A DNA stretch of 64,000 bases, from positions 1,331,795 through 1,395,794 of the forward strand of contig RPFO01000246.1 in assembly GCA_009746045.1 (NCBI GenBank). Reading direction: 5' to 3'. Origin of the DNA: Mesostigma viride (Eukaryota; Streptophyta; Mesostigmatophyceae; Mesostigmatales; Mesostigmataceae). The translations under genes were made by a program, and so were the position numbers. Positions 24,557 to 64,000 of the stretch are shown here, piece after piece. Position 1 is the first letter of the stretch. Each line of letters begins with the position of its first letter. Below the pieces are notes generated by a model. The model saw nothing but the letters and a program-made list of their open reading frames with translations. It was not told the origin of the DNA and did not search any database.

Positions 24557-24560
<4 letters not shown>

Positions 24561-35096: not shown

Positions 35097-35561
35097 ATGC
35101 CGAGAAGGGTAGCAGTGCTCCGACCAGCTCACGTGTGCAGTGACGAGGAGTGGGAGCGATTTGATGCAAAAGCGACCGAAGACGAAAAGCCCAAACAAAA
35201 CGTCGGTCCCAAGGAATATGTGCGGACCTTAAGACTGCAAATAACGACCTTTGGCCGTGCATACCTGGTAGACGGGTATGTCCTCAAGGAACAGGATGGC
35301 AAGATGGTGGAGGCGTTGATTAACCGGATAAAGAAGAGCTGCAGTAACTTTCTAGAAACAGCTGTGGGTGACGACAACCGTGCAGAGCTGGAAAAGTATG
35401 AGGCATCATGCTGGGTGCTAGACCCGACGACTGGTGAGCTCACCCCCCAGAAGCCCAAGGGCTCCAAACCCAAAGCCCTAAGTGTTGACGAATTCGTAAG
35501 AAAGGAGCTGAGCCGGTGGCTAAGCAACGCGAGCTCAAAAAAGCGGCAGAGTGCTGGCGCC
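35097..35561 (+). CDS. Gene X, 5' exon (interrupted by the 19.55 kb element)
   Basis: The open frame probably begins after the acceptor GTGTGCAG at about 35141. It reads DEEWERFDAKATEDEKPKQN, then a helical region (YVLKEQDGKMVEALINRIKK, LSVDEFVRKELSRWL), and reaches KKRQSAGA at 35561. There the giant element begins. Joining to 55116 keeps the frame (SAGA then EDEDDDGDLKENRQALGDE) up to a GTAATA donor at 55183. The fold is not recognised; it is a helical, charged protein. Its upstream 600 bp and first codons are repeated in reverse at 351-1021, so it is not single-copy. Confidence 0.6.
35558..35561. other. Target-site duplication CGCC, left
   Basis: Identical to 55112-55115 at the other end of the element. 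One copy plus GAGGAC restores the gene X reading frame. Confidence 0.75.
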
Positions 35562-35634
35562 GGGTGGTCCCACGCGGAATGGGGTCATTTTTGGCGCATT
35601 TTGCAAGAAAAAAACGCTAGTTTCAATCGTCCGA
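35562..35634 (+). repeat. Left terminal inverted repeat
   Basis: GGGTGGTCCCACGCGGAATG, a variable 9-15 bp, then GCAAGAAAAAAACGCTA and TTTCAATCGTCCGA. It matches the reverse complement of 55048-55111 apart from one small indel block and one substitution. Confidence 0.85.
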
Positions 35635-35855
35635 TATCTTTTTTTCGCGCGAATTTGGCGTCCGATCGCGTATTTTCGAGCTAATTTGGTGTCATAATGC
35701 TTAATTCATGTCAATTTGAGCGTACATTCCACATCGAGAGGCTTGAAAGTTAGTAATTCATGTAAATTTTACGTGGAGAGACTCGACATCATCCTAACCT
35801 TTGTATTAACCATAGGACGAGCATTGCCAGCGCATGTCCAAGTGCTAACTTTCCC

Positions 35856-38800
35856 TCACACTTTCGAGGGCCTCTTCCGTAATTTCGCTTCCGCGATCTG
35901 CTGTTCCGTTTTCGAGTTCCTCCTCTTCTTATCGATCTCCTTTGCAGGCGCCCAGACTTCCACATCCTTCCAGCTCTTGCCATCCGTCAGCTTTACCACC
36001 TTCATCGCGTAGTCCAGCGGCATCCACCACAACTTGTTCTTCAACTTCCCTCCCTTCTCCCCCTCAGCGAAAAACTTAAATGCGACGTCCCTCCACTTGG
36101 TGTCGTATCCAGACACCTGCCCATAAAGCATGACGTCTTCTAGCTTGGCATACATTGGCGTAGCCGTATCCTTGTTCCCTGCTTGCATAATGGCTGCAGT
36201 CCACCCATCACACCAAAAGGCCTCTGGTGCTCCGAACCCCATTTCCCCGTCCATAAGTCTCATTTCCAACGTGGGCTTGTCATCATCCTCATCGCCCGCC
36301 TGACTGTCTTCCGCCCCCTTAGGCTCCTCCCGTCCGGAAGTGTCAGCATGTACAGCCGCTGGTCCGAAGCCCACCGCCACATTAGCCAAGCGAAGTAACT
36401 GCTCCACATCCTCATTACCTGCGAGCAAACCGATCATGCCATCAACGCATGACTAAAATCGAGTTAGTAGAAATCGGACTGCCAACCGTAAAAAATCAAA
36501 ACACTCTACATACCAGAATTCACTCGCAGATTTTTTCTTACCCTTTTTGGCCTTTTCCTTCGACCTCTGCTCGCAGGTAGACCCCGTCTGGGGGTGGGGG
36601 GCAGGCGCCGGGGCGGGTTTGGCGGGCTCGGCAACCTTGGCAGTCTTCGCGGTCTTGGGTAACTTCTTGGAAGCAACGCGCTCCTTTCCCCCGTCCTCCT
36701 CCTCTCCGCCGCCATCCTCCTCCTCCTTCTCCTCCTCATCGTCCGAATCTGAAAGCACAACTGCTTTTCGACGCCGTTTCTGAGGCAGGGCAGGCTTGGG
36801 AGGCTTCCCCACCTTGGCCGATTTCTTGGAAGCAACGTGCTCCGCAGCCTTCCCACCCTTGGCGGATTTCTTGGTAGCAACGTGCTGCTCCTCCTCCTCC
36901 TCCTCCTCCTCCCCCTCCTCCTCCTCAGCATCGTCGTCCTCCTCCTCCTCCTCCTCCTCAGCATCGTCGTCCGAATCAGCCACTGCCACAACTGGCTTAC
37001 GAAGCTGCTTCTTCGGTACCTGAGAAATGGCCAGAGTCGGCGGGGGAACCCGAAGCTGCTTCTTCGGTACCTGAGAACTGGGCAGAGGCGCCGGGGTGGG
37101 CAGAGTCGCCGGGGGAACCCGAAGCTGCTTCTTCGGAACCTGAAAAACGGGCTGCGACGCGGCAGGCTTGGAAGGCCCACCTCCATCATCCTCAACAAGT
37201 GACACGACTGCCCGTCGAGTCACTTGAGAAGCGGGCTTCTTCGCCGCAGGCGGATCCGAATCACCTTCAGGCCCCGTATCTGTTCGGCCTGCTGCGTTCT
37301 GACCTCGACGGGGGTCTCTCCGCGGTTAGACCCTCCTGCCGGACCTCCATCCCCTCCATCCCCTCCCTCCAACAACTGTTGGTCATCCCTCTCCACCACG
37401 GCGGACAATCCCCCAGCTTCGTGGGAAGCTTTTCGCTTCTTCGCCCTTCCGAGCCTAGGCCCCCCATCACCTTCCCCCTGTTCAAGCCGCTCCCACAATT
37501 CACTCCCTTTCCCGATCCTTTCCACTATCTCTTGAAACCCCTTAATCTCCGTCTCGGTACCAAACACGATCACCATCGGTTCGAACCTGGAGAAAAAGTC
37601 GTGGGCGCAAGCCTTCAGCACATGATCGTACATCCCGCCCGGTTGGGGAATGTCCGAAGCTTTCGGGCAAGGACCGAACGCCCACCACCTGGACTGAAAG
37701 TTACTCCACTTATCACCCCAAATGTTCGCCAAGTTCAGCAGGCTCAGGCACGGAAGGGACCTGCCCAAGGGAAAGGGGCGGGCTGAAGCTGAGGCAACCT
37801 CGCCTGCCACCTGCTTGACGAGCGACTTGTCATCATCATCACCGTCTAGTAACTGACAGCAAAACCAGACCCGGCGACGGCCCCAGTCCACACTCTGCCA
37901 CTCATACTTCACGTCCCACTCCTCCTCCTCCTTCTTCGCCTCCGTCTCCTTCCCCTTCCCCTTCCCCTTCGATCCCTTCTCCAGCCCCTTCACCGGCCCC
38001 TTCATCGCCGCCTCCTTCACCCCCCCTTCGAGTAATCCAAGTTTTGGAGCGTACTTCCTGAACGCTTCCGGAGCAAAAAGTGCCAAACCCACCGTCTTGT
38101 CCTCGCTCTCTTTTAGCAGAATCTCCTGAAAGTCGATCTTGCCATTACTGATATCCTTTCTCGGAATCCTCAGATGTGCGGCGTGTTTTTTGGCTTTAAG
38201 AAGGTAGGCGATGTTCCTCGTTATGATGACGGCCACATCCCAAAATTCCCGGTATCTGGCCACAATCTCCTTCCTGCCGACCGGCCGAGCGAGAGGATGG
38301 AGATTGAAGACGAGTTCGAAAATATGAGACGCCACAAACTCCTTGCCATTTGCGTCCTTGCATCGCGCTTCCAGCGTCACATCCTCCTTGAATCTGGCGC
38401 AAATGGTCAGCCGCAGGCACTCCAGCACATCCTTGGCGATCTCCACCAACTTGGTGAGCTTTTCCGGTCCAACCTGGCAGCTCATGATGCAATCGATCAC
38501 GGCGTCCATCATAGGAAGGCTGGCCAAGTTCCTGAAAGAAGTCCAAGAGACCTTCTGGCCTTTCTTCTCCCCCTCTGCATTGGCGAATTTGCACCTTTGC
38601 ATCATCACCTCCTCAGGCGCGGGTTTCGTTGAGGCAGGATCATCAGTCTGCTCCTGTGTCAGACGGAGAAACGTGTTGGCCAGCGTGCGACTGTAAGCGG
38701 AATGCACTGAAGCAATGCTGTGGGCCGGCTTTTTCTTTCCTTCTGCTTCCTCCTCGTGTACATCCACCGCTGCCGGCTCCACATTCCCTTCCCTTCCCCC

Positions 38801-41800
38801 CGCTTGCCGCATAGCCGGGAGGATGTACGTGAGCAGATTGGTGTAGTGGCCATCCGCAATATAGTGGCCCTTCCCACGCGTGACTTTGCCGTATAGATAT
38901 AGCTTGTTGTAGTTCCACACGTCAAGCAACGCCTGGCCCAGCGTACGATCCGCCACGGCTAAGTCCTCCGAATTCGCCCCCTTGGCGATGTCGAACAGCT
39001 TCTCCAGCTTGCCGGTCAGCACCGCCTGCGACATCAATTAACATCGAGCGAGCAACGACAAAACTCAGTCATAAAAGGCGAGGGGTATAGCTGCGGATAG
39101 ACCCTAACAAAATTCGAAAAAGAAACGGCCGACAATACGCAACGAAAATTCCAACAAAAAAAAGGAGAGGGTCTAGCTGCAGCGAGACCCTCGCAAAAAA
39201 CTTGAAGCGCACACAAAAAACAACCACGAAAATTCCGAGGGTCTACCCGCAGCTAGACCCTGCCAAAATAGATAGCTTACATCTTCTTTTGCCTTAGGTA
39301 GATTTCGCAGCTCACTCCACGACGGGAGCAGGTCGCCACCCTTGAGAAGAATGACGTTCGTACCCATGTAACCACCACGGAATTTCCGCAACAGGTCCTG
39401 GAAGGCGTGCTCCGCCTCCTTAGGAGTATTTGCGAAATTGGACTCCGCCCCACCCTCGCACATCATTGCCCGAACCTCTCCCCACCCGCCATCCGGCCCC
39501 CTGAGAAACGACTTTAACCCCTTAAAGTAGTGGTTCCCATCCACCACCGCGTACCGGAGAACCAGATACGGTACCGGTACCCGTTCCTCAAAAAATTTCG
39601 GATCGTAGGACTTCATCGCAGTATTGCACAGCAGGTTGAAAACTTGCCGACTGCCCTCGATCTCCTGAGGCAAAACTGCTTCCACCTCGTCCACCCTGGC
39701 GTAGGTACGCCACTCAAGTCCTCTCGCGAGGAAAGAGGTGGTGGACTCCGTGTTAAGCCACACGTCGACTTCAGTATCCGAAAGGGGCCGGAAGTACCTG
39801 GACCCCACATCCTCCGCGTCAATCTTGGCGCCGTGGTGAATGCTTCAGCCACTTGACGAAATCCGGCATGCACAAGATTTGCTTGTCGAACAGGTCAGGT
39901 TGAGATTCGGCAAGCGCCTGGAAAGGGAACTGCCAGACCGGGACAACAACCTTGAAGTGCAAGGCGTTGTCCCGCGCATTGAGGAGAATGCGGCCGTTCT
40001 CCTTAATGGTTTCAAGGTTTAAACGCCGCTGCCTCAAAGCCTCTGGCAAAATAAGCGCGTTGACCGTCTGGATCCGCATACTGAAACATCCGGTCTGCTG
40101 AAAATCGGCCGGCCGAATCCAACGCGTTTCCCTGAGAGAATTGGCCTTCCGGATGTTCTGGTCCCTGACCTCCTTGTTCGAGTCGACCTTTTTCGAAGGC
40201 TTCCAGCTTTCAATGATAGGGTCGGTGTCCGGGTTCCCACTGCTCGTGAGCACCCCCTCCTTAAAAAGCTTGTTGAGTGACCGGAGCAGCTCAAGAAAGG
40301 GGGAGAACTCGGGCCAGTTTGGCAGGTCATCGACGTCCGCCATCCGCCTACTCGAGCAGTACTTGAGCATATCCTTCACCAGCGCGAACACGGCGTCATG
40401 ACCAGGTAACTTCTTCTCCACCGTGGCGTCTTCGTCCCCCCCGTCATCCTGAAGTAAAAAATCGAAAAGGACCGCAGGATTTGCTCAAGTCAGTAATATT
40501 TAGGCCGACCACGACATCCTGTTCAGGGACGAACAAAGTTCTGTTGGAATAATACCTTACTGACACTAAACACCAAGTCCCGCAGCCAGTCAGCGTCTAC
40601 CCGCAGCGAGAGGTCTAAATTTTCACAACAATCGTACCTGTCCAGTTTTCTGCTGCTTCTTGGCCTCCTTAGCCTTCTCCTTCTCCGCCTTCTTCGCCTC
40701 CTTCTCCGCCGCCTTCGCCTCCGCGTTCTTCTTACTGTTGGCCTTTGCCACCGCATTCAGCGCCCTTTTTCCCTCAGCGGCCCGACGACGAAAATCAGCC
40801 TTCATGAATTTCTCGATCTTGTCAACCTTTGCCTCTGAGTACTCCTTAGGCTGCCACTTGAAATTCTTGGTGGCTTTCGACTTCACCAGATTTACAAATT
40901 CATATGCCAATTCACTATTAAGGTAGCGACACCCAACACCTCCGTATCGAAATCGGCATCGACTTCCGCCTCAAGTCGTGTCAGGTACTTGCGAAACTCG
41001 GACCCCGCAGGTCCCTCCGAATCGACGCCATCGGGCGGAGACTTAAGCATGATCAGGCCAACAGCAATAATATGATCCTTCGCAACCTTCTTGCGGGAAT
41101 CCAGCTTTTCCCTTTCATGCTCAGTCAATGGAGGCTTCGCCGCCTTCCCCCCCGCAGTACCCCCAGCGACAGCCCCCGCCTGCATGACAAAAAAAAACGA
41201 ACAAGAAGGGACTTCACCTCAGTTCGATTGTTGCACCATCGTCTCTCTGCGGAGATACCCCTCAGCACGAAAAAAATCACACGAACTCGCGGCGGATGAA
41301 CGTACCTGCACAGCCACTTCTCCCTCAGCGTCTCCCCCATCCTCATCTCCTCCAGCGTTTTCATCCCCCCCATCCTCATCTCCTCCAGCGTTTTCTTCCT
41401 CTCCGGCAGCGCCTGCTGAGGCCAAACCCCCCGCCTGTCAACACCGAATACGACAGCTCATTGGAAATCAAAATTAGTCGACATTTGTATATTTCGCATA
41501 ATGCGCTCACTAAAACTTCAGGCGAAATGCAGACATCCGGATATCGTTTAATGCTTACCATTTCCATCTCGAGTCCAGACCAAATACCAGCACTGTCAAC
41601 AGCCATCGCCGCAGCCGCCCCCTGAAAAAAGACAACAGATTGGTTGGGGGCACCGTTGAAATTAGCCGAACATGTCAGTCTCAATAAAAGGGTGAGGGTC
41701 TACCTGCAGCTAGACCCCATGTAAGATGCTCGTGGAAACTCGACGGACAAGCACCCACCTTATCAACCAAGTCTGACAAATTAGGTAAATCCTCCGATAC

Positions 41801-44347
41801 GTCCCCTGGCATGGAGCCCCCCTGCATGATATGACAGGACAAACCATGAAGGTTGGTCAGCATATAGAGCCCTATTCAGGGAATGGAAACAACCCAAATC
41901 GATAAACGATATCGGCAAGTTAACGTACCGAAACGTAGAACTTCCACCTCCTCAAAATCTTCCCCAAAGGCCATATCGGCACTTGATGGGCTCTCTCCTT
42001 TTCCAGTTGCCGCCTCAATTCCGCCTCGAAGAACAACTCGAGGGACTGCCAATGGCCTCCCGCCTCTAAATCAGACCACTCCGTGTCTGTCTTGGTTCGG
42101 ATACTCTGGAGACAATCAACCAACGAGATTTGATCCAACCATTCCTGGACGATTTCCCGGTATGGCTTATATGTCTGAATAACATGGAAGTCCTCCCGGT
42201 GCCGGAAACTTTGGATCACCTGTCCAGCCCAATCCAAAAAGAAAGCGACCGCTTCCCGCGAAAGGCTGGCGTCCGGGCTGACAAGAAAGTCAGTCCGCCA
42301 CTTAACAAAAGATTGCAGTAAGTGGTCTCTTGCCATGTCCAAATGCGCGATCACTTCATGTGCGCGCTCCTCCAATCCTCCTACGTCATTCATTCTTCCC
42401 GGCACAATTACGATAAAGTCACTGTTGGACGTGTCAACAAATCCTTGCCTGACAATATCAAACACTTCATCTTCCGACAGTGAAGCCCTCGAATCCGCTC
42501 TCATATCTCCAGTCATGAGTTTAAAGAGCTGATGCAACGCAGTGGTTTTCAAGGTTTCCATATAGGAAGCCTCGATGCATGTGAAGCCAATGTGGACCTC
42601 GAACTTTTCAACCTCATCAAAGAGCGTCGACCATATTAAAGCACGACGGGGAAAGTAACGTCCGACATCCTCCTTCAGATTAAGGATGCACGACTGCGCG
42701 ATCTTCAAAACCTCATAAATGTCGTCACCAACGACCCTCTTCCCATGAATGGCTCGCTGTGTGGCTTCGAACAATGCAAGACGGCCCAGGCGGTCGTTCT
42801 TCCAAATTATGTGTGCCGACTCCGGACGGTCCACGACGACACCGGACTTCTCTGCAAACGCTATCTCGGCCGAAAGAAAGCGGATCAAGCCTCTCAAGCC
42901 CTTTTCGGCTTTACGACTCACCCCAGCCTCAGACTCAGTCTGAGCCAGGTACTGTTTCAGAATGGCCACCGTGGAGGGCTGCAGACAACAAGAGTAAAAA
43001 AAAGGCCACACATCGTCGTCGTCAACAACCTTAACTCCTAGGTCAACGTCTCTCCGCAGCTAGACCCTTACGATCAATGTATGACATAAAATCCCACCCT
43101 TTCTACGATACACACACGCCGTTCAAGCCATCTGAAAAATGTACGTCTCACATTAATAAACATACCTGATAATCGACTGAAAATCCTTCGTGAAGAATTC
43201 TCCGTTCTCGTCCTTCTCCCCCTCAACTGCCTTCGCAGCCTCCTCCTCCTTCCTCGCAGCCTCCTCCTCCTCTTCCTCGCGGCCTCTTCCGCCTTCATCC
43301 TCTCCTGTCGCATCTGCAAAAAAAGAGCGGCCTCCTCCGCAAGAATTCCTTCGCTGCCGCCTCCGTCTTCTTCTTCGCCTCCTCCTTCTGCTTCGCCACC
43401 AGGATCCTGTGCTCCTTCTCCTGGGCAGCCTTTTTCTCCTTGTACTCCCTCTCCTCCTCCTCCCTCTCCGCCTTCTCCAGCCTCTCCTTCTCCTCCCTCT
43501 CCACCCTCTCCCTCTCCGCCTTCTCGATGGCCTCCCTCTCCGCCTTCTCCTTCTCCTTGTCCTTCTTGTCGAGAGCCGCGTATTCGTCAGCAAAGCTTGC
43601 GGCCATTGCTAACAAATCGGACAACCGCTTCTGACGCGACTCCCGAACCGGCGATTCCGGGTCTTCAGGCCTCCCGTTAGTCTGATCGCGCTCGTCCTCC
43701 TCAACAAGCTCACTGATAGACTTCCTCAGCTTCCTGAGCTCTTTGGTGCGGTCGTCTTCCTCTACCCACTCGGCCGCAGGCTTACGCTTAGAACTGGAAT
43801 GCTTGGGGGACGGCGAGCGGGACGCAGAAGCGGGGGACTTGGGTGGCGGCGAGCGGGACTTGGGGGAAGGAGAGCGGGACGGCGAGCGGGACGCAGTTGC
43901 GGGGTTCTTGGTTGACGGCGAGGGGGACTTGCGAGAAGGAGAGCGGGACGCGGTAGCGGGGGGAACTTTGGGCGGAGAGGGGGACTTGCGGTTCGGCGAA
44001 CGGGTCGCAGTTGCGGGGGACTTGGGGGACTTGCGGGGCGGCGAGCGGGACGCAGTAGCTCCGGCCGACTTGGGGGGCGGCGATGGAGACTTACGGGGCG
44101 GAGAGCGGGACGGAGCGCGAGACGCAGCAGCGAGAGGGTTGGGGGGTATAATTCTGTCCAACTCGCTGGGGGGCAAGTTGGACTTGGAGGGCGAGGGGGA
44201 CTCGGTGGGGGGGACCTCGCAAGCATTTACGGGACCGAACTGCAACGGAGGAAACGCCTCCGTTGCCGTTCGGTCCGGCGAGGTGTTCGACGTCATCTTG
44301 GGTGAAACGGGAGTGGCCTTGACAGAATCGGAATAGGAGGACGACAT
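35856..44347 (-). CDS. Large unknown protein of the giant element (at least 10 exons, about 2,400 aa)
   Basis: Exons with GT-AG borders (minus strand): 44347-about 43300, about 43306-43166, 42978-41929, 41821-41759, 41621-41559, 41434-41306, 41179-40638, 40448-39281, 39026-36514, 36452-35856. The N-terminus has repeated Ser-Pro-Arg-Lys blocks (SRSPPRKSPSP type), then a long charged Glu/Lys/Arg helix. Globular parts follow (42978-41929 and 40448-37300, for example YREFWDVAVIITRNIAYLL and GSRYFRPLSDTEVDVW), then an acidic/basic low-complexity block with three VPKKQLR repeats (37150-36600), and a C-terminal region with LWWMPLDYAMKVVKL. One-base frame breaks near 43320, 40925, 39835 and 37270 interrupt it. 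No catalytic motif is recognised. It may be one gene or more than one. Most introns carry the 22-bp palindrome. It is divergent from the DDE gene across the minisatellites. Confidence 0.55.
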
Positions 44348-44423
44348 CTGCAGAACAATATCAAAAAAGCAAGTTTCACAAATGTCATTCAGAATCTGAA
44401 TCGCCGGCAGAAAAACGATGGGG

Positions 44424-44888
44424 AGGGTCTCGCTGCAGCTAGACCCTTTCGTGGATTCTAAAAGGGACATTTAGTTTAATGCAAAACTTTGGCGTCTCGC
44501 TGCAGCGAGACCCTCACTTCAAGCAAAAACAAATCATTTTTAGGGTGAGCGAAAACAAGCAACCTCCCATCATGCAAACATAAAAAAGTATACATTCCTT
44601 GGGGTCTCGCTGCAGCGAGACCCTAACGTCAAACAAAAACAAATCATTTTTAGGGTGAGCGAAGAAAGCCCCTCCCATCTTGCAAACATTAAAAGTCGAC
44701 ATTCGTAGGGGTCTCGCTGCAGCGAGACCCTAACACCGATACAAAAACAAATCATTTTAAGGGTGAGAAAAGAAAGACCCCCCATCATGAAAACATGAAA
44801 AATTGACATTCCTTGGGGTCTCGCTGCAGCGAGACCCTAACGTCAATACAAAAACAAAATTCCGAGGGTCTACCCGCAGCGAGACCCT
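44424..44888 (-). promoter_or_regulatory. Upstream region of the large gene: about 108-bp repeats, each with the 22-bp palindrome
   Basis: Palindromes lie at 44424, 44491, 44601, 44709, 44817 and 44865. Between them is a repeated block (AACAAATCATTTTTAGGGTG and CCTCCCATCATGCAAACA), giving three tandem units of about 108 bp. The position directly upstream of the first ATG (44347) makes a promoter or 5' UTR role plausible; this is inference. Confidence 0.45.
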
Positions 44889-44889
44889 T

Positions 44890-46403
44890 ACGACCACGTA
44901 TAAATACATGTGGGGGGGGAAGCTACGTATAAATACATGTGGGGGGGGATGCTATGTATAAATGCATGTGGGGGGGTGCTGGCATTAATAATTAAATGTG
45001 GGGGGGTGATGGCATGAATAAATAAATGTGGGGGGGTGCTGCCATGAATAAAAGAATGTGGGGGTGTGATGGCATGAATAAATGAATGTTGGGGGGTGCT
45101 GGCATTAATAATTAAATGTGGGGGGTGATGGCATGAATAAATAAATGTGGGGGGTGCTGCCATGAATAAAAGAATGTGGGGGGTGCTGCCATGAATAAAA
45201 GAATGTGGGGGTGTGATGGCATGAATAAATGAATGTTGGGGGGTGCTGGCATTAATAATTAAATGTGGGGGGTGATGGCATGAATAAATAAATGTGGGGG
45301 GTGCTGCCATGAATAAAAGAATGTGGGGGGTGATGGCATGAATAAATAAATGTGGGGGGTGCTGCCATGAATAAAAGAATGTGGGGGGTGATGGCATGAA
45401 TAAATAAATGTGGGGGGTGCTGCCATGAATAAAAGAATGTGGGGGGTGCTGCCATGAATAAAAGAATGTGGGGGTGTGATGGCATGAATAAATGAATGTG
45501 GGGGGTGCTGGCATTAATAATTAAATGTGGGGGGTGATGGCATGAATAAATAAATGTGGGGGGTGCTGCATGAATAAAAGAATGTGGGGGGTGCTGCCAT
45601 GAATAAAAGAATGTGGGGGTGTGATGGCATGAATAAATGAATGTTGGGGGGTGCTGGCATTAATAATTAAATGTGGGGGGTGATGGCATGAATAAATAAA
45701 TGTGGGGGGTGCTGCCATGAATAAAAGAATGTGGGGGGTGATGGCATGAATAAATAAATGTGGGGGGTGCTGCCATGAATAAAAGAATGTGGGGGGTGAT
45801 GGCATGAATAAATGAATGTGGGGGGTGCTGCCATGAATAAAAGAATGTGGGGGGTGCTGCCATGAATAAAAGAATGTGGGGGTGTGATGGCATGAATAAA
45901 TGAATGTTGGGGGGTGCTGGCATTAATAATTAAATGTGGGGGGTGATGGCATGAATAAATAAATGTGGGGGGTGCTGCCATGAATAAAAGAATGTGGGGG
46001 GTGCTGCCATGAATAAAAGAATGTGGGGTGTGATGGCATGAATAAATGAATGTTGGGGGGTGCTGGCATTAATAATTAAATGTGGGGGGTGATGGCATGA
46101 ATAAATAAATGTGGGGGGTGCTGCCATGAATAAAAGAATGTGGGGGGTGATGGCATGAATAAATAAATGTGGGGGGTGCTGCCATGAATAAAAGAATGTG
46201 GGGGTGTGATGGCATGAATAAATGAATGTTGGGGGGTGCTGGCATTAATCATTAAATGTGGGGTGTGATGGCATGAATAAATAAATGTGGGGGGTGCTGC
46301 CATGAATAAAAGAATGTGGGGGTGTGATGGCATGAATAAATGAATGTTGGGGGGTGCTGGCATTAATAATTAAATGTGGGGGGTGATGGCATGAATAAAT
46401 AAA
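44890..46403. repeat. Minisatellite 1 (about 29-bp unit, G-rich on plus strand)
   Basis: About 50 units of the type AATGTGGGGGGTGCTGCC followed by ATGAATAAAAG, with variants alternating GTGCTGCC, GTGATGGC and GTGCTGGC in a higher-order pattern. ORFs on the minus strand (PPHSFIHG-type repeats) are by-products. Confidence 0.95.
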
Positions 46404-47885
46404 TGATACGTAGCATCACCCCCCACATGTATTGATACGTACGTAGCATCACCCCCCCACATGTATTGATACGTAGCATCACCCCCCCACATGTATTGAT
46501 ACGTAGCATCCCCCCCCACATGTATTGATACGTAGCAGCACCCCCCCACATGTATTGATACGTAGCAGCACCCCCCCACATGTATTGATACGTAGCAGCA
46601 CCCCCCACATGTATTGATACGTAGCAGCACCCCCCCACATGTATTGATACGTAGCAGCACCCCCCCACATGTATTGATACGTAGCAGCACCCCCCCACAT
46701 GTATTGATACGTAGCAGCCCCCCCCACATGTATTGATACGTAGCAGCACCCCCCCACATGTATTGATACGTAGCAGCACCCCCCCACATGTATTGATACG
46801 TAGCAGCACCCCCCCACATGTATTGATACGTAGCAGCACCCCCCCACATGTATTGATACGTAGCAGCACCCCCCCACATGTATTGATACGTAGCAGCACC
46901 CCCCCACATGTATTGATACGTAGCAGCACCCCCCACATGTATTGATACGTAGCAGCACCCCCCCACATGTATTGATACGTAGCAGCACCCCCCACATGTA
47001 TTGATACGTAGCAGCACCCCCCCACATGTATTGATACGTAGCAGCACCCCCCCACATGTATTGATACGTAGCAGCACCCCCCCACATGTATTGATACGTA
47101 GCAGCACCCCCCCACATGTATTGATACGTAGCAGCACCCCCCCACATGTATTGATACGTAGCAGCACCCCCCCACATGTATTGATACGTAGCAGCACCCC
47201 CCCACATGTATTGATACGTAGCAGCACCCCCCCACATGTATTGATACGTAGCAGCACCCCCCCACATGTATTGATACGTAGCAGCACCCCCCCACATGTA
47301 TTGATACGTAGCAGCACCCCCCCACATGTATTGATACGTAGCAGCACCCCCCCACATGTATTGATACGTAGCAGCACCCCCCCACATGTATTGATACGTA
47401 GCAGCACCCCCCCACATGTATTGATACGTAGCAGCACCCCCCCACATGTATTGATACGTAGCAGCACCCCCCCACATGTATTGATACGTAGCAGCACCCC
47501 CCCACATGTATTGATACGTAGCAGCACCCCCCCACATGTATTGATACGTAGCAGCACCCCCCCACATGTATTGATACGTAGCAGCACCCCCCCACATGTA
47601 TTGATACGTAGCAGCACCCCCCCACATGTATTGATACGTAGCAGCACCCCCCCATGTATTGATACGTAGCAGCACCCCCCCACATGTATTGATACGTAGC
47701 AGCACCCCCCCACATGTATTGATACGTAGCAGCACCCCCCCACATGTATTGATACGTAGCAGCACCCCCCCACATGTATTGATACGTAGCAGCACCCCCC
47801 CACATGTATTGATACGTAGCAGCACCCCCCCACATGTATTGATACGTAGCAGCACCCCCCCACATGTATTGATACGTAGCAGCAC
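46404..47885. repeat. Minisatellite 2 (30-bp unit, C-rich on plus strand)
   Basis: About 49 nearly identical units of GATACGTAGCAG, CACCCCCCC and ACATGTATT. The C-run unit is the reverse complement of the G-run unit of minisatellite 1, so the two arrays face each other at about 46404. ORFs through it in all frames are by-products. Confidence 0.95.
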
Positions 47886-48607
47886 AATTTTAGTCAGCCT
47901 ACCATCCACGTTGCGGCAAAAGATCACCTTTTTTTGTGTTTCGGCAAAATGAAGATTTCTTGCAAACTATCGTTATGCAGGCAGGTAGCAACGTCCGATG
48001 TTATAATCCGGCAGGTAGCATGCAAACGTCGAAACGATATGAAGGGGAAAAAAAGCATCAAACAGGAGCACCGATTAGAAACGCAGCAAATGCAGTATGT
48101 GCACATCTACACCTATAACCTAACCAGACCAAAGGCATAGCAAACATGGAAAGGGTGACCCAAGTGAAAGCCTAGCACCACCATGATCGACATGTGCGAG
48201 ACCAAGAAACGCTCCATGGCAACTAGACTAAAGGGATGGATGCCAGATGTGGATTAGGATCGGCTTAGCTGACTCTACCGAGATGTCTGCAGGGTTTAGC
48301 TAGCAACGAAAAGAAGGAAGCCAGACATTTTTATCACTCTTGCTGCAACATAGAGTTTCTTGCGATGGCAGCAAGGACATGTCTTCGCCCAGCTGGCTAA
48401 CTGTGTCGTCGGCGTGCATGCGCTGTTTAGTTGCCGTTTTTGATAGAACAATTTTAGTCAGCCTACCATCCAGGATGCGGCAAAAGCTCACCTTTTTTTC
48501 GTTGTGCGGCGAAAGCAGACCGATTTCCTTGTAAACTTCCGGCACCAGGCAGGTATCAACGTAGGATTTTATAATCCAGCAGGTAGCATGCAAACGTCGA
48601 AACGATA
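47881..48607 (+). repeat. Pair of about 160-bp direct repeats
   Basis: 47884-48042 and 48450-48607 share ATTTTAGTCAGCCTACCATCC at their left, CACCTTTTTTT in the middle, and CATGCAAACGTCGAAACGAT at the right, with moderate divergence between. They lie between the minisatellite and the small ORF 48607, possibly duplicated promoter sequence. Confidence 0.75.
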
Positions 48608-48930
48608 TGGCAGCTCGTATCAGCTATGGGGTCTCTCTGCGGCTGCGCTTCTTTTTCGATGGGCGATGGGACGGTCGCAATTCGCAAAACGGACGCGGCG
48701 TCACAGGGCTGAACGGTATTGAAAAAATTGGAAACGTGGCATCCTCGTTCCTCCCCACGGAACTGAAAACTGGAAGCGCGGCGCTGGTGCAAAAGCTCGA
48801 TCCCATCTTTTGGAACCAAGCTAGCGGATTGGACGACATCCAATATGCCGTCACCCGTGCTTGTGGCCGCAGGTATAAAAAGAGACGACCTCCAGCCCAT
48901 TTACCTGGGAACATTCGGATGTTTGGCTGA
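48607..48930 (+). CDS. Possible small protein of the giant element (107 aa)
   Basis: ATG at 48607, just after the second 160-bp repeat. It reads MAARISYGVSLRLRFFFDGR, later VASSFLPTELKTGSAALVQK, and ends at TGA 48928. A half-palindrome (GGGGTCTCTCTGCGGCTGCG) lies within the first codons, as it does within introns elsewhere, so part of this may be intronic. No family is recognised. Confidence 0.3.
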   Translation: MAARISYGVSLRLRFFFDGRWDGRNSQNGRGVTGLNGIEKIGNVASSFLPTELKTGSAALVQKLDPIFWNQASGLDDIQYAVTRACGRRYKKRRPPAHLPGNIRMFG

Positions 48931-49010
48931 CATCGTTACCATGCGAAATGTACAATGAGGTTCTGGGTTCGATTCCTGGTGTGGTCATGGAAATAAATTT
49001 TTTTCTGCAC
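48931..49010 (+). ncRNA. tRNA-like 3' half (B-box) inside the giant element
   Basis: GGTTCGATTCC at 48966-48976 is a perfect pol III B-box. It forms a possible T-arm (CTGGG, loop TTCGATT, CCTGG) followed by TGTGGTCA, which would be the acceptor 3' strand. A matching 5' acceptor strand and a clear anticodon arm are not seen. TGGCTGACATCG upstream is a weak A-box candidate. It is probably a tRNA relic rather than a working tRNA. Confidence 0.35.
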
Positions 49011-49381
49011 ATCTACTGAAATCAGTCATAGCACCAAACTCACGCTGCAGCGAGACGCTATAGCCCTGGAGGCCGCTGATAAACCTGACATCCGGTACGT
49101 CTTACTATCATAGATTGCCGAACTATATAATAATAATAGTCTATACCACTTTTTCTTGTAAATGATTTACTAAATAATGATTCTATATACTTTAACATAC
49201 CATATTATTAAAGTATGTGGAATTTAACCATGCTATTCACAATATATTATAAAATCTTTTGCAAAATATACTGTAATTAGTATATATATTTTCTGATAAA
49301 CAATTTTATCAATGCTACTGTGTTATTTTTGTTATTCTCGCCATGCAGGTATCTGAGTGTTCTGGGAGAACTAATAAGAGA

Positions 49382-52300
49382 ATGAGCCGCGAAGGTGAGG
49401 AAAACCTGAAATCTTTTCGTCCTTATTGGGGTCTCTCTGCAGCTAGACCATTTATAACCACAAGCAATAGCTTAAATTCAAGGGTCTCGCTGCAGCTAGA
49501 CCCTCTTTATGGTTGCTATAAAATTAATGAATCAGAAGTCTGTGATTTAACAATCGCACGCCGCAATGAAGGGTCTAGCTGCAGCGAGACCCCAATCTTG
49601 GTCGGGGTATGCTAAGTTCACCACATCAGGTAATCTTTTCGTCTAACGGAAAAAGCCCCTCTAAGGGTCTAGCTGCAGCTAGACCCCAATCGTGGTAAAA
49701 AATGATACACTTTCGAACTTTGTCTGTAATTGTCGCTTTTCCCAACGATACTCGATTTGCATGGATTTCGTTGTGCCGGTCGTCATGGCATGCAGCACGC
49801 GAACGGGTGGGAGTTTTCGCCCTTGCGTCCGGTCGTCCAGGATTCAGTGCAATTAAGTTGAACACCGGGACGAAGCAGTCAACTGGCGCAAAAAGGGTTT
49901 TCGGAGATGAGAACCAGAATCCAGCGCAGCCTGAAGCCAAGGAAGTCAAGCGGCCGGGAGAATACTCGAAATCAAAGAGGGTTATTGGGGAATATTTCGC
50001 TGACCAGGCGTTTGAAGCGGCTCAGGCGATGACAAAACCCGAGGGGCGGGGGCCGGCTTTCGACCAGATGATTGCTGGCTTTAACTCTAGGGCCGCTGAA
50101 CTAGGTCACGGGAAGTATCATGAGGAGGCGAAAAAGCTTTACAATCAGGAGCGGATGGCAGAACTGAACAGGTTCTGGGTGGCTCGGATTAACGGCTTTT
50201 TTGATGGTCTGACCAAAAGCGACGCAGACAGAGACGTCAGGATGGTGCTGATGTCCACGCTTTACTGTGGTGACGACTTGGAGAAGGAGTTTTCGGCCGC
50301 GGAGTTGGAGAACCTGACGGGGATGGACGCCAAGAAGATTCGCGGAATTCGCGCGATACGAAGGCAGCAGAAGTTGGACTACCTCAGACACGCGCAGGCT
50401 CGCAAGGGGCGCCCTTTGCCGCAATTCGTGATTGACGCGATAGTGGACGCGTGGATGCACGATGATGAGTCGCGCGCCTCCTCCCAGATGAAGGATGTCA
50501 AGCGCACTTACAGCAGGGAGGGTCGTGGCAATCACGGGGTGCTCGTCGCCGTTGAGGGAGCGCGCTATTACATGACCTCCAAGGAGGACATGTACAATCA
50601 CTTTCTCGAAAAGCATGCGTACTGGAACAAAAGGAGTAACCAGTATGATAAGGACGTGGGCATTCACGTGGGCTACACGACCTTCTGCAAATACGCGCCC
50701 GATTGCATCAAGGGCAAGTGGAAGGAGAGGAACCTGTGCGCGTGTGAGAAGCACGTCACCATGCAGTCGGCCATGGGGGCGTGGACCAAGCACTCCAATG
50801 CGAACCACGGCAAGAACTGCAAGTGTGGCGCGGAGTGTGCGGGATGCTCCAAGTACAGAGAGCCGGACGGTACTTGCGGAATGTGGAAAGCCATTCACTC
50901 GACGGACTGGATCAAGCACTTTCACTGCCCGGTGTCCGCCGAGACTGACGGCAGGGATAACGGGCTGCGTGAAGGGGGCGGAATGGGCGGGGGGATGGAA
51001 GAGGGGGAGGGGGAAGATGAATGGCGGGGACGGGACCTGGAAGACCTCGACATTTCTGAGAGGCTGGTGGAGGACGAAGATGGGGTGCCGAGGACGGAGA
51101 GGGTTCACCGCATACTGAAGATGGCGTGTGTGGAGGGGTTCTGTCCTGAGGAATCATGCGGCATCCATAATAACTGGGTGCAGTGTGATCGGGACAAGAA
51201 TTCCACGGAGATTCTGAATTGGTTCAAGTTCGAGATGGTGGAGCAGACTGTGACCCGACGGGTGAATGTGAGTTGGTTTCGATTTTATTTCTCCGTTAAT
51301 ATGTTGTTGACTTTTTTTTTTGTGACCTATAGCTGCAGCGAGACCCTTTGTGAGTTGCAGTTATCTTATCGAAATGCGATTTTATTGCAAATCGAAACTG
51401 TCTGCGGACCTTTGCGAAACAGGGCGAGACCGATGGCAGGGCGGCGAAGAAGGTGAAGCGGCCCGAGCAAGTCCAAATGAGGTCCACCCCAGCTGAGCTG
51501 CGGGACGAGATTCTTAAGATGTGGGACAAGTTCACCGTGCACTGCTTTACGGCCTGGTCGCAGGCGGATACAATCAAGGATCGGGAGAAGAATCTGAGAG
51601 AGGGGGACGTGCTCGTGCACGGCGACTGGGCCGAGAACTACGAGAACAGCAGCTACGTCCAACTGCAGTCGCAGTACTTCCACAAGCGCAGCCACATCCT
51701 GATGCCCATGATCGTGCGTTATCGGCTCAACGGCGAGCTGGAAAAGCGCGTCTTCTTTTTCCTGGGGGATTCCAGTATCAAGCGGGGCGAGCGCGCACTC
51801 GTATACGCTCTTCGCAAGATTCTGGAAACCCTGCGGGTAGAAGTAGGGGTAGAGGTGCGAAACCTGTACATGTGCTCGGACAACTGCGCGGTGCAGTTTA
51901 AGTCCAGGTACGTGATTAACCAGATTAACGGTCTGCTCATGGGGGATCCCGACCTGCAGGCCTTTGAGTTCCACTACATGGGGGAGCAGCATGGGAAGGG
52001 GGAGGTGGATGGTCAAGGAGCGAAGTGCAAGTGCGTCTTGAGGGAAATGCAGAGGATTCCCGAAAACCAGCACATACTTGAGACCCACCAGCTAGTCGCC
52101 TACTTGAACCAGAACTGGCAGGGCGGCAAGACATCGAGCAGGGAGTCGGCCCGCGCGCGGGCCGAGAACGTCACTCGCCACTTCTTCCTTTTACCCCCGG
52201 TACGGAATTGTGTGTTATTTCAGGTTTTAAGACGTCAACTGCCGCTGTTCTATAAAAATTCAAACCCAATAAAGGTATCTCTGCAGAGAGACCCTATATA

Positions 52301-53427
52301 CTGTCATGGGTTGCTTTTCTTTTAGGTATGAAATTTCGCTTGTTCTTTCGGTATGAAGGGGTCTCTCTGCAGCTATACCCTGTGTCGAATTTCGATCACT
52401 TGATATCTTGTCGTACGTTGTTATTATGATTCGAATGGGGTCTCTCTGCAGCTATACCCTGTGTCGAATTTTGATCACTTGATATCTTGTCGTACGTTGT
52501 TATTATGATTCGAATGGGGTCTCTCTGCAGCTATACCCTGTGTCGAATTTTGATCACTTGATGTCTTGTCGTTAATTTTTTTTTTAAGGGGTCTCTCTGC
52601 AGCTATACCCTGTTTTATTGGTTTTTGGTCAATTTTGCTAATTTGAACGGTATTCTTTTTGTCCTAACTATTTGATGACAGGACGTCGAGTCCGGCCGAC
52701 GCGCGGAGGTGAGGAGGTGCCTGGCATCAAGAAGGCGCATTGGTGGCGACTGGACAAGTCCGACCCTGGCCTTTTGATGATTAGGCGCTATTCCTGCTAC
52801 TGTCCGCCCTGTTTGGCTGGGCGGTTTGAGGGATGTCTAAGCGAGTGGTCGTTTATCATCGAGTTCAATGATGCAGGAAGCTCGATGAAAACTGTCCGTT
52901 TGCTGCCACCGAGCCAGCCCAACCCTCCGGTTCGCATGGTGACGCGGGGGGAGCAGCTGAAGGACAAGCGGGAGGCGATGGGCCGGCAGATGAGACTCCA
53001 CGACTATGTGGCAGTTCCATCGGACAAGGACACGGATCACGATCCCATCCACCCGTTCTGGTTGGCTGAGGTTGTAAGCGAAGCCGGGCCGATCGTGTTA
53101 GACGAGAACTTCGAGAGGTGGGTCGAGGGCCGGAACGGACGGGAGAAGGAGCTGTTCCTCGCCGGGAACGGCATTCTTCCCGTTCGGATTTGGAAGCGGG
53201 ATAAGCATGACCCCCTGCATTTCACGCTCAACGTTGAGGATTGGCCACCGTCACGCCAGCCCGAGCTTGTGAATTGCTATCTCTGCGTCGCTCCGGCTCT
53301 CCGGCTAGAAGCACGCGTGCGCAGCGACGGAATGTGTGCCGACATCAGGATGAGCAAGGAGCTCGACAAGTGGCTTACTACGCTGGTGATCAAGGATGAA
53401 GCCCCGGAGGGGCCGGCACCGACTTAA
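49382..53427 (+). CDS. DDE-transposase-like protein of the giant element (four exons, about 990 aa)
   Basis: Proposed exons: 49382-49394, 49796-51267, 51423-52199 and 52714-53427. The first three junctions keep frame; the last acceptor could instead be 52682 with a one-base shift. An alternative start without splicing is ATG 49702. The N-terminal half has helices (EFSAAELENLTGMDAKKIRG) and Cys/His clusters (LCACEKH, CKCGAECAGC, GFCPEESCGIH), probably zinc-binding. Exon 3 has an RNase H-fold-like core: GDWAENYEN (Asp), MCSDNCAVQFKSRY (Asp) and GEQHGKGEVDGQGAKCK (Glu). The SD-x-QFK plus HGKG-x-x-DG pattern is one I associate with uncharacterised transposase-like proteins of diverse eukaryotes; the superfamily is not certain. 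The last exon carries CYCPPC and PFWLAEVV. Introns 1-3 contain one to four 22-bp palindromes each. It would act on the element ends. Confidence 0.65.
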
Positions 53428-53694
53428 ATTAACAAGAAATTGGGGTCTCGCTGCGGGTAGACGACGCCCTAGTTTCGGCTCGTATTATATCTTTAGAGTG
53501 GGGCTTCAGTAGGGTGTAAAAAGGTGGCCGCATATATTGTATATATTTTTCGAGATCTTTCTGTGGTCAAGTTTAAGGGTAGTTGATAATTTTTTGCGGC
53601 CTTCAATTAACAGTTATTTTTTACTGCAACATAATTTTATGCTGTATATTTAAATAATGATAAGGATTTCGACATTTGTTTCTGCATGTCGAGA
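53428..53694. other. 3' flank of the DDE gene
   Basis: AT-rich, with one palindrome copy at 53443. No gene. Confidence 0.4.
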
Positions 53695-53906
53695 ATTTAT
53701 TGCTCCACCCCCACAAAAAAAATCGTTCCGGAACTGTTCGAAGCGAATAGCACTGACAGGATTCGAACCCGGGTCCACATTAATGTTCGGAGTGAGGTAG
53801 GCCAGCCATCATGTTCCGCACTCAAATCTGGCTCGGGTCCGATCCCTTCCATTGCTCTTCGCTTCGAACAGCTCCGGAACAAGTTTGTGGGGTTGGAGCA
53901 ATAAAT
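53695..53906. mobile_element. Foldback element T3 with tRNA-like core (212 bp)
   Basis: The ends ATTTATTGCTCCA/CCCCCAC and their inverse pair over about 50 bp and include TTCCGGAACTGTTCGAAGCG. On the minus strand GGTTCGAATCC (53769-53759) is a perfect B-box with a T-stem. The following CAGTGCT pairs 6 of 7 with AGCAATG (53856-53850), which is the mirror position in the other arm, so the inverted repeat supplies a tRNA-like acceptor stem over 109 nt. No protein is encoded. It lies in the intergenic part of the giant element. Confidence 0.7.
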
Positions 53907-54221
53907 ACTTATTTGCCGGGCGCAGTTGTCATTCCGCCTAGTACAATTGCGTCACTAGTACAATTTTTGTCTGGGTACGGTACGAACCAATAACGCAATA
54001 TTTAGTATCTAATCGCCGCTGCTCTTGCTGAATTTTATCCGGAAGCTGAAAAGGTGTCCGGTGAAGCGAATACTAGTGACTGGTGGTCGTGCCCTTCCAT
54101 TACTCCTTATCGACAAATTTTGGGTTCTACCTGCAGTTATAACCCTTGCGCGTCTGGCTGTCGGGGTCACCAATTTCCTGTCGATTGCAAGCAGCCAACC
54201 TTGCCGAAATTTAACACTGTC

Positions 54222-54663
54222 ACAAATGGAGCAGAGCAATATTTTCGGTTCTCAGCATACCTATGTGATGGTCGACAAAAATGAGCACGCTGCAAACATC
54301 AGAATTGATGTAGAGTTGCTCGGACCTTCTGCACAGTGGGGTGCAGGTGTCATTGCGTTCGGCAATGGCATGATCGATCTGGTGCCACCCGATTCAGATT
54401 TGAACCCTGCTTACCAATGCGTGCCTGACAATCAGGCGAGAGTGGTGGTGGAGAGCACGGAAATTCCGGGCTCTCCCAATGTATCAATGATGCGCCTGAG
54501 GGCCGAGGCCCAGCAGGAGTTCCTGGCTGCTGCGGAGAACGGCGGGGCCAAGTGGAACACCAAAATGTATACAGGCGAGCCTCCCAACTACAGGGGAGAC
54601 CAGTACCAGGGAGTGTACTCCTTCGGCGATTTTGACATCGACGGATGGGGCACCTTTTTCTAG
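54222..54663 (+). CDS. Third gene of the giant element, unknown (about 147 aa)
   Basis: From ATG 54222 the frame reads MEQSNIFGSQHTYVMVDKNE, then AANIRIDVELLGPSAQWGAG, ARVVVESTEIPG and a C-terminus YSFGDFDIDGWGTFF. The frame is also open upstream to 54025, but that part contains a degenerate palindrome at 54121 of the type found in introns, so I prefer the later start or a spliced one. The sequence looks like a small beta-rich globular protein. No family is recognised. It is the last gene before the right terminal repeat. Confidence 0.5.
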
Positions 54664-55047
54664 GCGCAATGCCTAAGTTGTCAAATACTCCGACAATGTC
54701 AAAATTGCGAATGATAAAATTACGGACATGTGCACATATATGTACTGATTCAATAAAAAATTTCGGCAATTTTGTTCCCGGCATTGATAATCAAAAGCTG
54801 CTAGCAAGCCAAGGACTTCAAAAGTGGCAATAGATCGATGTAGGTCGTCGATAAACTTGTCTAGTCGTCATATTTCGGTCGCAAAATTCGTGCGTGGCCT
54901 GCAGGCATCGGACAAAGTGCACGCAACAGCAGGAGTCGGTTGAGTTCGAAGCACGGCAGACACAAAATTTCGGCGCAAAGTCCGTCGGGCGAAAAATTCG
55001 CTCGGCTGCCAAATTTTCGGCAAGAATTTCGGCGCAATGTCCGGTTT

Positions 55048-55111
55048 TCGGACGATTGAAATTAGCGTTTTTTTCTTGCAAAAATCTACCCCATTCCGCG
55101 TGGGACCACCC
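55048..55111 (-). repeat. Right terminal inverted repeat
   Basis: Reverse complement of 35562-35634. It ends ...CCGCGTGGGACCACCC at 55111, followed by the CGCC duplication. Confidence 0.85.
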
Positions 55112-55115
55112 CGCC
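55112..55115. other. Target-site duplication CGCC, right
   Basis: Matches 35558-35561. Confidence 0.75.
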
Positions 55116-58455: not shown

Positions 58456-59214
58456 ATAACACACACTTCAAACCATGCCGGCCCATGGTGATACACGGCG
58501 CGCATGAGCGCGGGCAGGAAAGGCCAAATGCCATGCCACGTAGGCAACAAATGCTAGCATTCTTAGTCAGCCTCCGTAGGACTATATCCCAGGCGGACAT
58601 GCTCCGCCCTGAGATGGCGGCGCCGTGCCACCCCCTTGAGCTTCCGGGTGGTGGCTGCTGCCCCCCTCGTGGTAGTGGCGCCCTTGAAATTCTTGGCGCA
58701 TTCGCCACGCTGGGAGAGGCGCTGCCATACCCGCTGCTTCGTCACGTTGAAGTCCAGCCCCTCCACCTGCCCGGAGTGGAAGAGGCCGAAGCAGTTCCGC
58801 TCGCTGTTGCTGCAGAACGCCATGTCACAGTGCTCGCACATGACCGAGGTCTTGTGCTTCCTGCCTTGCGCGCAGCACAGTTGGCACAGCACCTGCTCCA
58901 CCCAGACATTTGCCCATCTCATGCATTGTTAAGGGGTGCCACTCACGCCCACCTGGCTTGCCCGCCCCCTTGAGCTCAGCATAGTCGTTGGTCTCCTTGA
59001 CAATCTTGGCCACGCCCATCACGTTGGGACCAGAAAAGGGAGAACAGCCAGTTAGGTTAAATAGTGCCGGAACCTTTTGCCGCCTGAGGCAAATCGGTCC
59101 GGAACACTATTTTGCCCGGAATAACCACTTCCGAGCACCCAAGTTAATTCGGCCGAATTAACTTGGGTGCTCGGAAGTGGTTATTCCGGGCAAAATAGTG
59201 TTCCGGCCCGATTT

Positions 59215-59303
59215 GCCTCAGGCGGCAAAAGGTTCCGGCATTATTTAACGTAACTAAAACCTGTGCAACTTGGAGGTCAGGGGTTCGAATCCTCACTGAG
59301 GCA
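59215..59303 (+). tRNA. tRNA-like sequence 1 in T4 (identity unknown)
   Basis: GCCTCAG (59215-59221, inside the palindrome arm) pairs 7 of 7 with CTGAGGC (59296-59302) in the spacer, followed by A. GGTTCGAATCC at 59282-59292 is a perfect B-box/T-loop with a short T-stem. A possible D-arm (CGG, loop with GG, CCG) follows the acceptor strand. The anticodon arm is not clear, so it is more likely a tRNA-derived structure than a working tRNA. Confidence 0.4.
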
Positions 59304-59552
59304 GCTCCGGCGCATTTAGTGGTGCGTGCTCAGCGGCCTAGGCGGATGTCTCGGGCTCTTCGTCCCCCCTCCACGAGGCCAGGTTTTAGTTACGTTAAAT
59401 AATGCCGGAACCTTTTGCCGCCTGAGGCAAATCGGGCCGGAACACTATTTTGCCCGGAATAACCACTTCCGAGCACCCAAGTTAATTCGGCCGAATTAAC
59501 TTGGGTGCTCGGAAGTGGTTATTCCGGGCAAAATAGTGTTCCGGCCCGATTT

Positions 59553-59641
59553 GCCTCAGGCGGCAAAAGGTTCCGGCATTATTTAACGTAACTAAAACCT
59601 GTGCAACTTGGAGGTCAGGGGTTCGAATCCTCACTGAGGCA
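59553..59641 (+). tRNA. tRNA-like sequence 2 in T4 (identical copy)
   Basis: Exact copy of 59215-59303, 338 bp downstream, with B-box at 59620-59630. Confidence 0.4.
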
Positions 59642-60714
59642 GCTCCGGCGCATTTAGTGGTGCGTGCTCAGCGGCCTAGGCGGATGTCTCGGGCTCTTCG
59701 TCCCCCCTCCACGAGGCCAGGTTTTAGTTACGTTAAATAATGCCGGAACCTTTTGCCGCCTGAGGCAAATCGGGCCGGAACACTATTTTGCCCGGAATAA
59801 CCACTTCCGAGCACCCAAGTTAATTCGGCCGAATTAACTTGGGTGCTCGGAAGTGGTTATTCCGGGCAAAATAGTGTTCCGGCCCGATTTGCCTCAGGCG
59901 GCAAAAGGTTCCGGCATTATTTAACGTAACTCAGCCCGAGGGGCCCAAACTTGAGCTGGACAGGGGAAAGGTTTTGATAGCAGGCGGTAACCGTCATCGG
60001 CGACAGCACCGGAGTATCGGGAAAAGGAAACACACCTGGCTTGCCGAAACCAGATTTCCAGACAGTCTCGGCTGGCTCCTCAGTGGCAGGCGTGTCGTTA
60101 GGAAAAAGCGAATCATCGAGCTCAGCCTCACCGCTCGGCACCGGACCCTCCGCACCCTTCTGGTAAACAAAGCCGTCATCGGAAGCGTCCGAGACAACGC
60201 TCTCGCTGGCCGCCGCCTTGGTCTGACGGCGCCTTTTCGGGGCGTGGCTGATGGCTGGGTTCTTCTACGGGTTGCCGACAGCGCGCTTCCCCGGCTCGCG
60301 TCGCTTGACCGGTGTGGGCAGCTCGATATCCTCTGATTTGTCGTCGTCGTCCTCGCCGGCGTCAGAATCGCTATCCTGGCCCTGCTCGCTATCATCGTCA
60401 CTGCTACCTGCCGTTGGGACCTTCCTGGCTGCGCATTCTTTCACTAGAGCTTCGTACTCATCTGAGCTGCACGAATATATGAAAATCTGCTCACGGGTGA
60501 ATGGGTACGTGAGCTTGTCGTCCGGGAAATAGCACCGTGCACCATCTCCGGAACTGTTCACTGTCACTACCTTGCCCGGCAAACGTACCTCGCTGTGTTT
60601 TTCCCCATACTGCTCTATCGCCCAGTCTAGTCCGAACTTTTCCACAGGCACTGCCATGAAAATGCCCTTCTTTACCTTGAAAGTCCGTATATCTGCCTGC
60701 ATTTCGTCCGCCAT

Positions 60715-63910: not shown

Positions 63911-63912
63911 TG

Positions 63913-63983
<71 letters not shown>
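63911..63983. repeat. (TAA)n microsatellite tail
   Basis: About 24 TAA units after the LINE-A tail, versus about five at 16203. Confidence 0.95.
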
Positions 63984-63984
<1 letters not shown>

Positions 63985-64000
63985 GCGTACGACTGCAGTG

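Follow-up and report, generated by a model that had tools for sequence, protein, structure and literature searches.

A giant Sola-like DNA transposon of Mesostigma viride with private palindromes that may mark its own copies

We analyzed a 64,000-nt stretch of the genome of the streptophyte Mesostigma viride (assembly GCA_009746045.1, contig RPFO01000246.1, positions 1,331,795 to 1,395,794 of the forward strand), hereafter the window. Positions 35562-55111 of the window are a complete DNA transposon of 19,550 bp, bounded by terminal inverted repeats (TIRs) and a 4-bp target duplication, which interrupts an open reading frame (ORF) called gene X and carries two multi-exon genes on opposite strands (A and B), a small ORF (C) and a series of 22-bp palindromes. 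A related family in the same genome, the sister family, has its own version of both genes and of the palindromes. The features of the locus are listed below with window coordinates and strand; palindromes are given without strand.

35097..35561, plus strand: left part of the interrupted ORF (gene X), multicopy, continuing from 55116 onwards (ORF; empty paralogues)
35558..35561, plus strand: left target duplication, CGCC
35562..35634, plus strand: left TIR, 73 nt
35856..44347, minus strand: gene B, about ten tentative exons (ORFs, codon model, conservation in the sister)
37312..43067: eight palindromes along gene B, at 37312, 39083, 39169, 39239, 40593, 41239, 41696 and 43046
44425..44887: palindromes ahead of gene B, six in number, some of them within a 107-bp tandem repeat (44489-44858) (pattern search)
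48629..49686: six palindromes between genes B and A, those at 48629 and 49037 degenerate (pattern search)
49702..51267, plus strand: gene A exon 1, with a part that is Cys/His-rich by eye (ORF)
51325..52610: palindromes in the introns of gene A, at 51325 (intron 1) and at 52273, 52359, 52438, 52517 and 52589 (intron 2)
51423..52199, plus strand: gene A exon 2, with a transposase-like core (GDWAEN, CSDN..QFKS, HGKGEVDG) whose motifs are kept in the sister
52682..53427, plus strand: gene A exon 3, with a frame break near its start in the window copy
53443..54144: two degenerate palindromes after gene A, at 53443 and 54123 (pattern search)
54226..54663, plus strand: ORF C, 145 aa, without family match, its frame favored by the codon model
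55048..55111, minus strand: right TIR, 64 nt
55112..55115, plus strand: right target duplication, CGCC

Both TIRs begin with GGGTGGTCCCACGCGGAATGGGGT, 24 identical bases that are followed by a gap and a few changes. The two 100-bp ends align to each other with a local score of 47 (computed with the right end placed 4 bp short); among about 2000 pairs drawn at random from the window, the scores have a median of 8.5 and never exceed 36. Excising the element together with one CGCC removes 19,554 bp, a multiple of three, and joins ...SAGA to EDEDDDGD... in one open frame, while a trial join of gene X further downstream is out of frame. A preliminary description of this DNA had proposed a single mobile unit on the grounds of opposite repeats of 64-73 bp, a CGCC direct repeat at both borders and the in-frame rejoining of gene X, and had counted at least three genes in it; every one of these points is borne out, with genes A and B and ORF C as the three coding regions and with the 4-bp duplications, further copies and uninterrupted gene X paralogues described next.

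The search for copies covered the genome from which the window comes, 440 Mb on 2243 contigs. The first 139 bp of the element occur at no fewer than 40 places besides the window's own copy, all at 100% identity (468 first-look candidates), and in 8 of 8 left ends fetched the similarity extends over 1.6 kb at 98.9-99.8% identity, the main alignment starting exactly at GGGTGG. We examined 17 giant copies, chosen from contigs with room, and found both ends in five, of 24,049, 19,638, 21,121, 21,568 and 16,108 bp; each of the five is flanked by a perfect 4-bp duplication (TTGC, TAGG, GGTT, TGCT and AACA). The protein of gene A exon 2 was scored at 147 places (730 candidates), 123 of them, including the window, at 91-100% identity and 24 at 68%, a second group that by this protein comparison is the sister family. 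Two gene-less miniatures have the same TIRs, each with two exact palindromes: one of 586 bp (L050:4623-5208) with the duplication TGAT, in which nothing apart from the ends matches the giant element, and one of 1340 bp (L051) with the duplication TGTC.

Gene X is uninterrupted at two further loci, L053 and L054, where the sequence crosses the insertion point without a break, CGCC stands only once and the preceding 40 bp contain one mismatch. Downstream of that point 195 of 209 alignment columns match in L054, and the 80 bases after it are the same in L053 as in L054; on these alignments the two are empty paralogous sites. The objections that the preliminary description had allowed for, a lack of any second copy and of any gene X homologue free of the segment, thus both fall away. 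The ORF that it named gene X is not a unique host gene, being found at 40 scored places of 90 candidates (window included) at 91-100% identity. Gene X may belong to another mobile element.

Support for the coding regions comes from a codon model for which gene A was the only training set: the annotated frame ranks first in all seven pieces of gene B, in both of gene X and in ORF C; on a retrotransposon reverse transcriptase as control, the two strands come out nearly tied (-0.02 versus -0.03). None of the six other copies compared has the frame break seen in gene A exon 3 of the window copy, which shows that the element also exists without it. Gene B of the window copy has several frame breaks, and at two that were inspected, the three other copies found differ. 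Gene A, with the ordered motifs of its exon 2, would encode a DDD/E transposase that works on the TIRs. Certain animal transposon proteins, which we take to carry DFAEN, SDG..QFKN and GHGKG..DG.GG, resemble these motifs, a resemblance we use as a lead only. Three viral contigs picked out by a pattern that combines HGKG..DG of the window with glycines of animal transposon proteins were discarded as chance matches after tblastn and reading. In the family libraries, the sole match below 0.1 for the window genes was BSP_II (E 0.0039, under its cut-off, in an acidic low-complexity stretch), and a piece of sister gene B matched RecQ_Zn_bind (E 0.011, also under its cut-off). A PDB search by sequence left exon 2 and a single gene B exon without match and gave, at best, E 0.24 for exon 3 and E 0.63 for another gene B piece; a single-sequence fold of one gene B exon was unusable (pLDDT 40). 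Neither the first two exons of gene A nor one gene B piece has a relative in the viral contigs, which also lack the TIR 20-mer, and exon 2 has none in the prokaryote genomes. Gene B would add a protein family without library match.

The element is most likely a giant cut-and-paste transposon of the Sola superfamily or a close neighbor, placed there by its traits (a 4-bp duplication, DDD-like motifs and a size above 15 kb) and not by homology of the transposase. Sola elements produce 4-bp duplications (PMC3627910; PMC10741241) and have TIRs of 11-1124 bp and sizes of 2 to more than 15 kb (PMC10741241), according to the accessible parts of both papers. Here, the duplication is of that length in the window, in all five giant copies with both ends and in both miniatures, and the 73/64-bp TIRs and copies of 16.1-24.0 kb agree with the accessible figures. 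The D-containing motifs of gene A are ordered and conserved in the sister. A giant Sola1 element of 21.5 kb with an opposite-strand gene, Sola1-1_Ec32, is described in Ectocarpus; its accessory protein has ParB-like and DNA-methyltransferase domains and is regarded by its authors as a possible binder and modifier of the transposon that carries it (PMC12477816). On that partial account, our element resembles it in its 4-bp duplication, Sola-range TIRs, size above 15 kb and a gene opposite to the transposase. It differs in that the gene B pieces scanned, from the window or the sister (all but a stretch around 40640-41600), give no ParB-like or DNA-methyltransferase Pfam match, and the available portion of the Sola1-1_Ec32 description mentions no palindromes (PMC12477816). 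The preliminary description had also called the size unusual. The 19.5 kb is confirmed, but size alone is not new: large multi-gene DNA transposons of algae, which this element resembles, already include giant KDZ elements (PMC12477816, accessible part) and the 16-20 kb EnSpm elements of Chondrus (PMC6431247).

Other placements were tried and rejected. EnSpm/CACTA elements have CAC-type termini and 2-3 bp duplications; here the termini read GGGTGG..., the duplication is 4 bp and gene A has no Pfam match. Polinton/Maverick elements carry capsid genes and make a 6-bp duplication. They also encode PolB and a retroviral-like integrase (PMC6431247), and PolB, integrase and capsid are all absent from the pieces scanned. 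A KDZ element (Kyakuja, Dileera, Zisupton) would need a duplication of 7-8 bp, the length reported for Kyakuja and Zisupton/Dileera (PMC12730594), where this element has 4 bp, and Ginger elements are characterized by 5'-TG...CA-3' termini and an integrase-type transposase in the part of the source available (PMC10741241), against GGG...CCC termini and no integrase match here.

The most informative feature of the element, absent from the preliminary description, is its palindromes. If up to 3 mismatches are allowed, the 22-bp sequence GGGTCTMKCTGCAGMKAGACCC matches the window 21 times (0.00 expected), and at up to 6 mismatches there are 28 sites, all inside the element, which makes up 30.5% of the window, and none elsewhere in the window. 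Thirteen are spread over seven tentative introns: among those along gene B, seven are intronic and the one at 37312 is ambiguous, and the intron 2 sites of gene A lie partly within a 79-bp tandem repeat. Four others (49429, 49482, 49571 and 49665) stand just upstream of gene A. No centre of the 28 falls in a tentative exon, or at most two if the ambiguous sites at 37312 and 44425, near which two exon limits had been drawn, are counted; with both taken as coding, exon avoidance has P = 1.8e-10, or 2.4e-8 with tandem copies collapsed. Genome-wide, the exact palindrome pattern occurs 1479 times and its reversed control not once, and the places listed include many miniature-type pairs about 226 bp apart. 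The five stretches spanning right ends of giant copies hold 34 sites in 30.2 kb of element and a single site, of sister type, in 19.3 kb beyond the ends. That site (L015:6695) lies 21 bases past the right end of the L015 copy, which may sit in or beside a sister element. The palindrome was not found in viral contigs or in prokaryote genome contigs, and a literature search turned up no comparable palindrome system, which is no proof, most subscription papers being outside its scope.

The sister family repeats this arrangement. Its full copy on contig C1 is 20,374 bp long, with its own TIR GGCCGGGCCCACTTCGAATGTTCCG at both ends, a gene A of three exons (50, 68 and 60% identical to those of the window element) and, on the opposite strand and in the same order, a gene B of which 6 of 7 pieces are recovered at 26-61% identity, the exon 2 part being the most diverged. 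With the free pattern, in which half-site positions 5-8 may vary, this copy has 34 palindromes, none of them in 9.3 kb of flanks and none centered in the conserved coding blocks; by eye they lie as in the window element, upstream of B and A, in introns of both and after A. Both arms of the window palindromes carry the half-site GGGTCT(C/A)GCTG, and the two families part at its position 6, which is T in 50 of 50 window-element arms and A or G in 65 of 68 sister arms (36 of 36 versus 53 of 56 when distinct sites only are counted). In intron 2, all ten blastn matches between the families with E at or below 0.001 fall at sites, the best reaching 92% over 25 bp and 95% over 22 bp.

Taken together, these observations probably describe a giant Sola-like transposon with private palindromes that are bound by an element-encoded dimeric protein marking the element's own copies. 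The gene A product would cut and join at the TIRs, an element-encoded protein would bind the palindromes as a symmetric dimer, and the bound protein would tag each copy of the element along its length. A hairpin is less favored than a pair of half-sites that a dimer reads, because the two arms agree no better than shuffled ones (concordance 191, against 190 +- 4.7, over 23 sites), so that there is no covariation. As reader, the gene B product would be preferred to the transposase, since both families have kept it and no other function for it is apparent, while the palindromes in the miniatures also suit the transposase. Marking might serve to keep host silencing off, as plant VANC does, or to gather and activate copies for transposition. 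We hold more tentatively, as a possibility short of an even chance, the full scheme of private self-recognition, in which a gene B dimer would coat the element via its palindromes, defeating silencing or licensing transposition, and the two families would avoid cross-talk through a symmetric change in the half-site.

Several results count against this interpretation. The sister copy is flanked by ATTA and ACTA, an imperfect duplication with 3 of 4 bases shared, and in 12 of the 17 giant copies the right end lies outside the fetched stretch, which is no evidence either way. Gene A, gene B and ORF C have no convincing Pfam or NCBIfam match, the gene B pieces scanned from the window and the sister contain no recognized DNA-binding domain, and a single-sequence fold of gene A exon 2 was unusable (pLDDT 38), making the Foldseek list obtained with it meaningless. 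The free pattern finds 25 sites inside the window element and 2 outside it in the window, and the reversed sister sequence gives 8 sites against 34, so that some weak sites may well be due to chance. Between the families, the strongest match in the DNA upstream of gene A (17 bp, E 0.002) is off-site, the next ones being at sites.

A different reading, which we find doubtful rather than improbable, is that the palindromes are binding sites of the gene A transposase, used for synapsis or cleavage only, gene B being an unrelated passenger. The two miniatures retain two exact sites each although they have no genes, as a cis requirement of transposition would have it, and the Cys/His-rich part of exon 1 points the same way. 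The sites nevertheless extend across the whole element and cluster at the 5' ends of both genes instead of lying subterminally, and the sister conserves both the order and the sequence of gene B.

Tandem repetition raises another explanation, that the palindromes are tiny parasitic repeats which spread inside the transposon and have no function for it: several have been multiplied by the 107-bp and 79-bp repeats and, in the sister, by one of 58 bp. This is improbable, as positions correspond in two families whose introns have diverged, the families differ by a symmetric, family-specific base change and no centre lies in a tentative exon. We give a low probability to a role in RNA, in which hairpins, or duplexes between sites of one transcript, would aid splicing or expression. 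Many sites are intronic and the DNA upstream of gene A has a much lower folding energy than its shuffled versions (z -11), but such low energy is expected of palindromes whatever their role, the arms do not compensate for each other's changes, and sites also occur in intergenic DNA and in the gene-less miniatures. That the unit is an integrated virus or Polinton-like element and not a cut-and-paste transposon, as its ~20 kb, several genes and TIRs might suggest, is highly improbable given the lack of any polymerase, integrase, capsid or ATPase family among the pieces scanned, the absence of viral-contig relatives for exon 1, exon 2 and one gene B piece, and a duplication of 4 bp as opposed to the 6 bp of Polintons.

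To our knowledge, self-recognition and silencing resistance of transposons are known in sequence detail for few systems. One is VANC of the VANDAL elements, which form another superfamily. In the accessible text on Arabidopsis, the short motif to which VANC21 binds lies in noncoding DNA of its own VANDAL family, in introns, between genes and at the termini, and VANC motifs are often in tandem repeats and differ between related families (PMC5735166). As far as that text allows comparison, the Mesostigma palindromes are alike in being an own-family motif, mostly noncoding, partly in tandem repeats and different between families, and unlike in length and described symmetry, VANC motifs having 8-9 bases and not being described there as palindromic (PMC5735166). 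Library scans of gene B yielded no VANC-like match, no direct comparison with a VANC sequence having been made. If the self-marking interpretation is true, the element would be an independent counterpart of plant VANC, based on a protein family that none of the library models used here matches. A single genome offers a pair of related giant families, whose gene B proteins are matched and whose palindromes are matched and diverged, together with site-keeping miniatures, so a recognition code is directly testable with two proteins, two versions of the site and one base position that separates them.

The window contains further repeats. Two minisatellites lie between genes B and A:

44929..46405, plus strand: minisatellite, 29-bp unit, 50 copies (repeat search)
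46404..47885, minus strand: minisatellite, 30-bp unit, 50 copies, with a related unit (75-80% inverted match to the 29-bp unit)

They abut and form an inverted array of about 3 kb (44929-47885). A flank of the L008 copy (L008:133-1513) matches the element's minisatellite at 72-75%, which suggests that this copy inserted into the minisatellite of another. At 53692-53909, a nested fold-back with inverted arms of 26 and 53 nt encloses, by eye, a tRNA-like B box; ARAGORN calls no tRNA at 53692-53909, its only call in the window being a tRNA-Thr (TGT) at 4729-4805, and Rfam gives no match at gathering score. Outside the element, a 338-bp unit stands three times in tandem at 59050-60025, and every copy of it contains the perfect palindrome AGTTAATTCGGCCGAATTAACT; a near-palindrome, TAGGCACAGGCGCCTGGGCCTA, occurs at two places (12192-12213 and 27803-27824). 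Retrotransposon-like ORFs lie at 61540-63998, recognized by eye, and at 23151-28193, with a reverse transcriptase match (RVT_1, E 6e-25).

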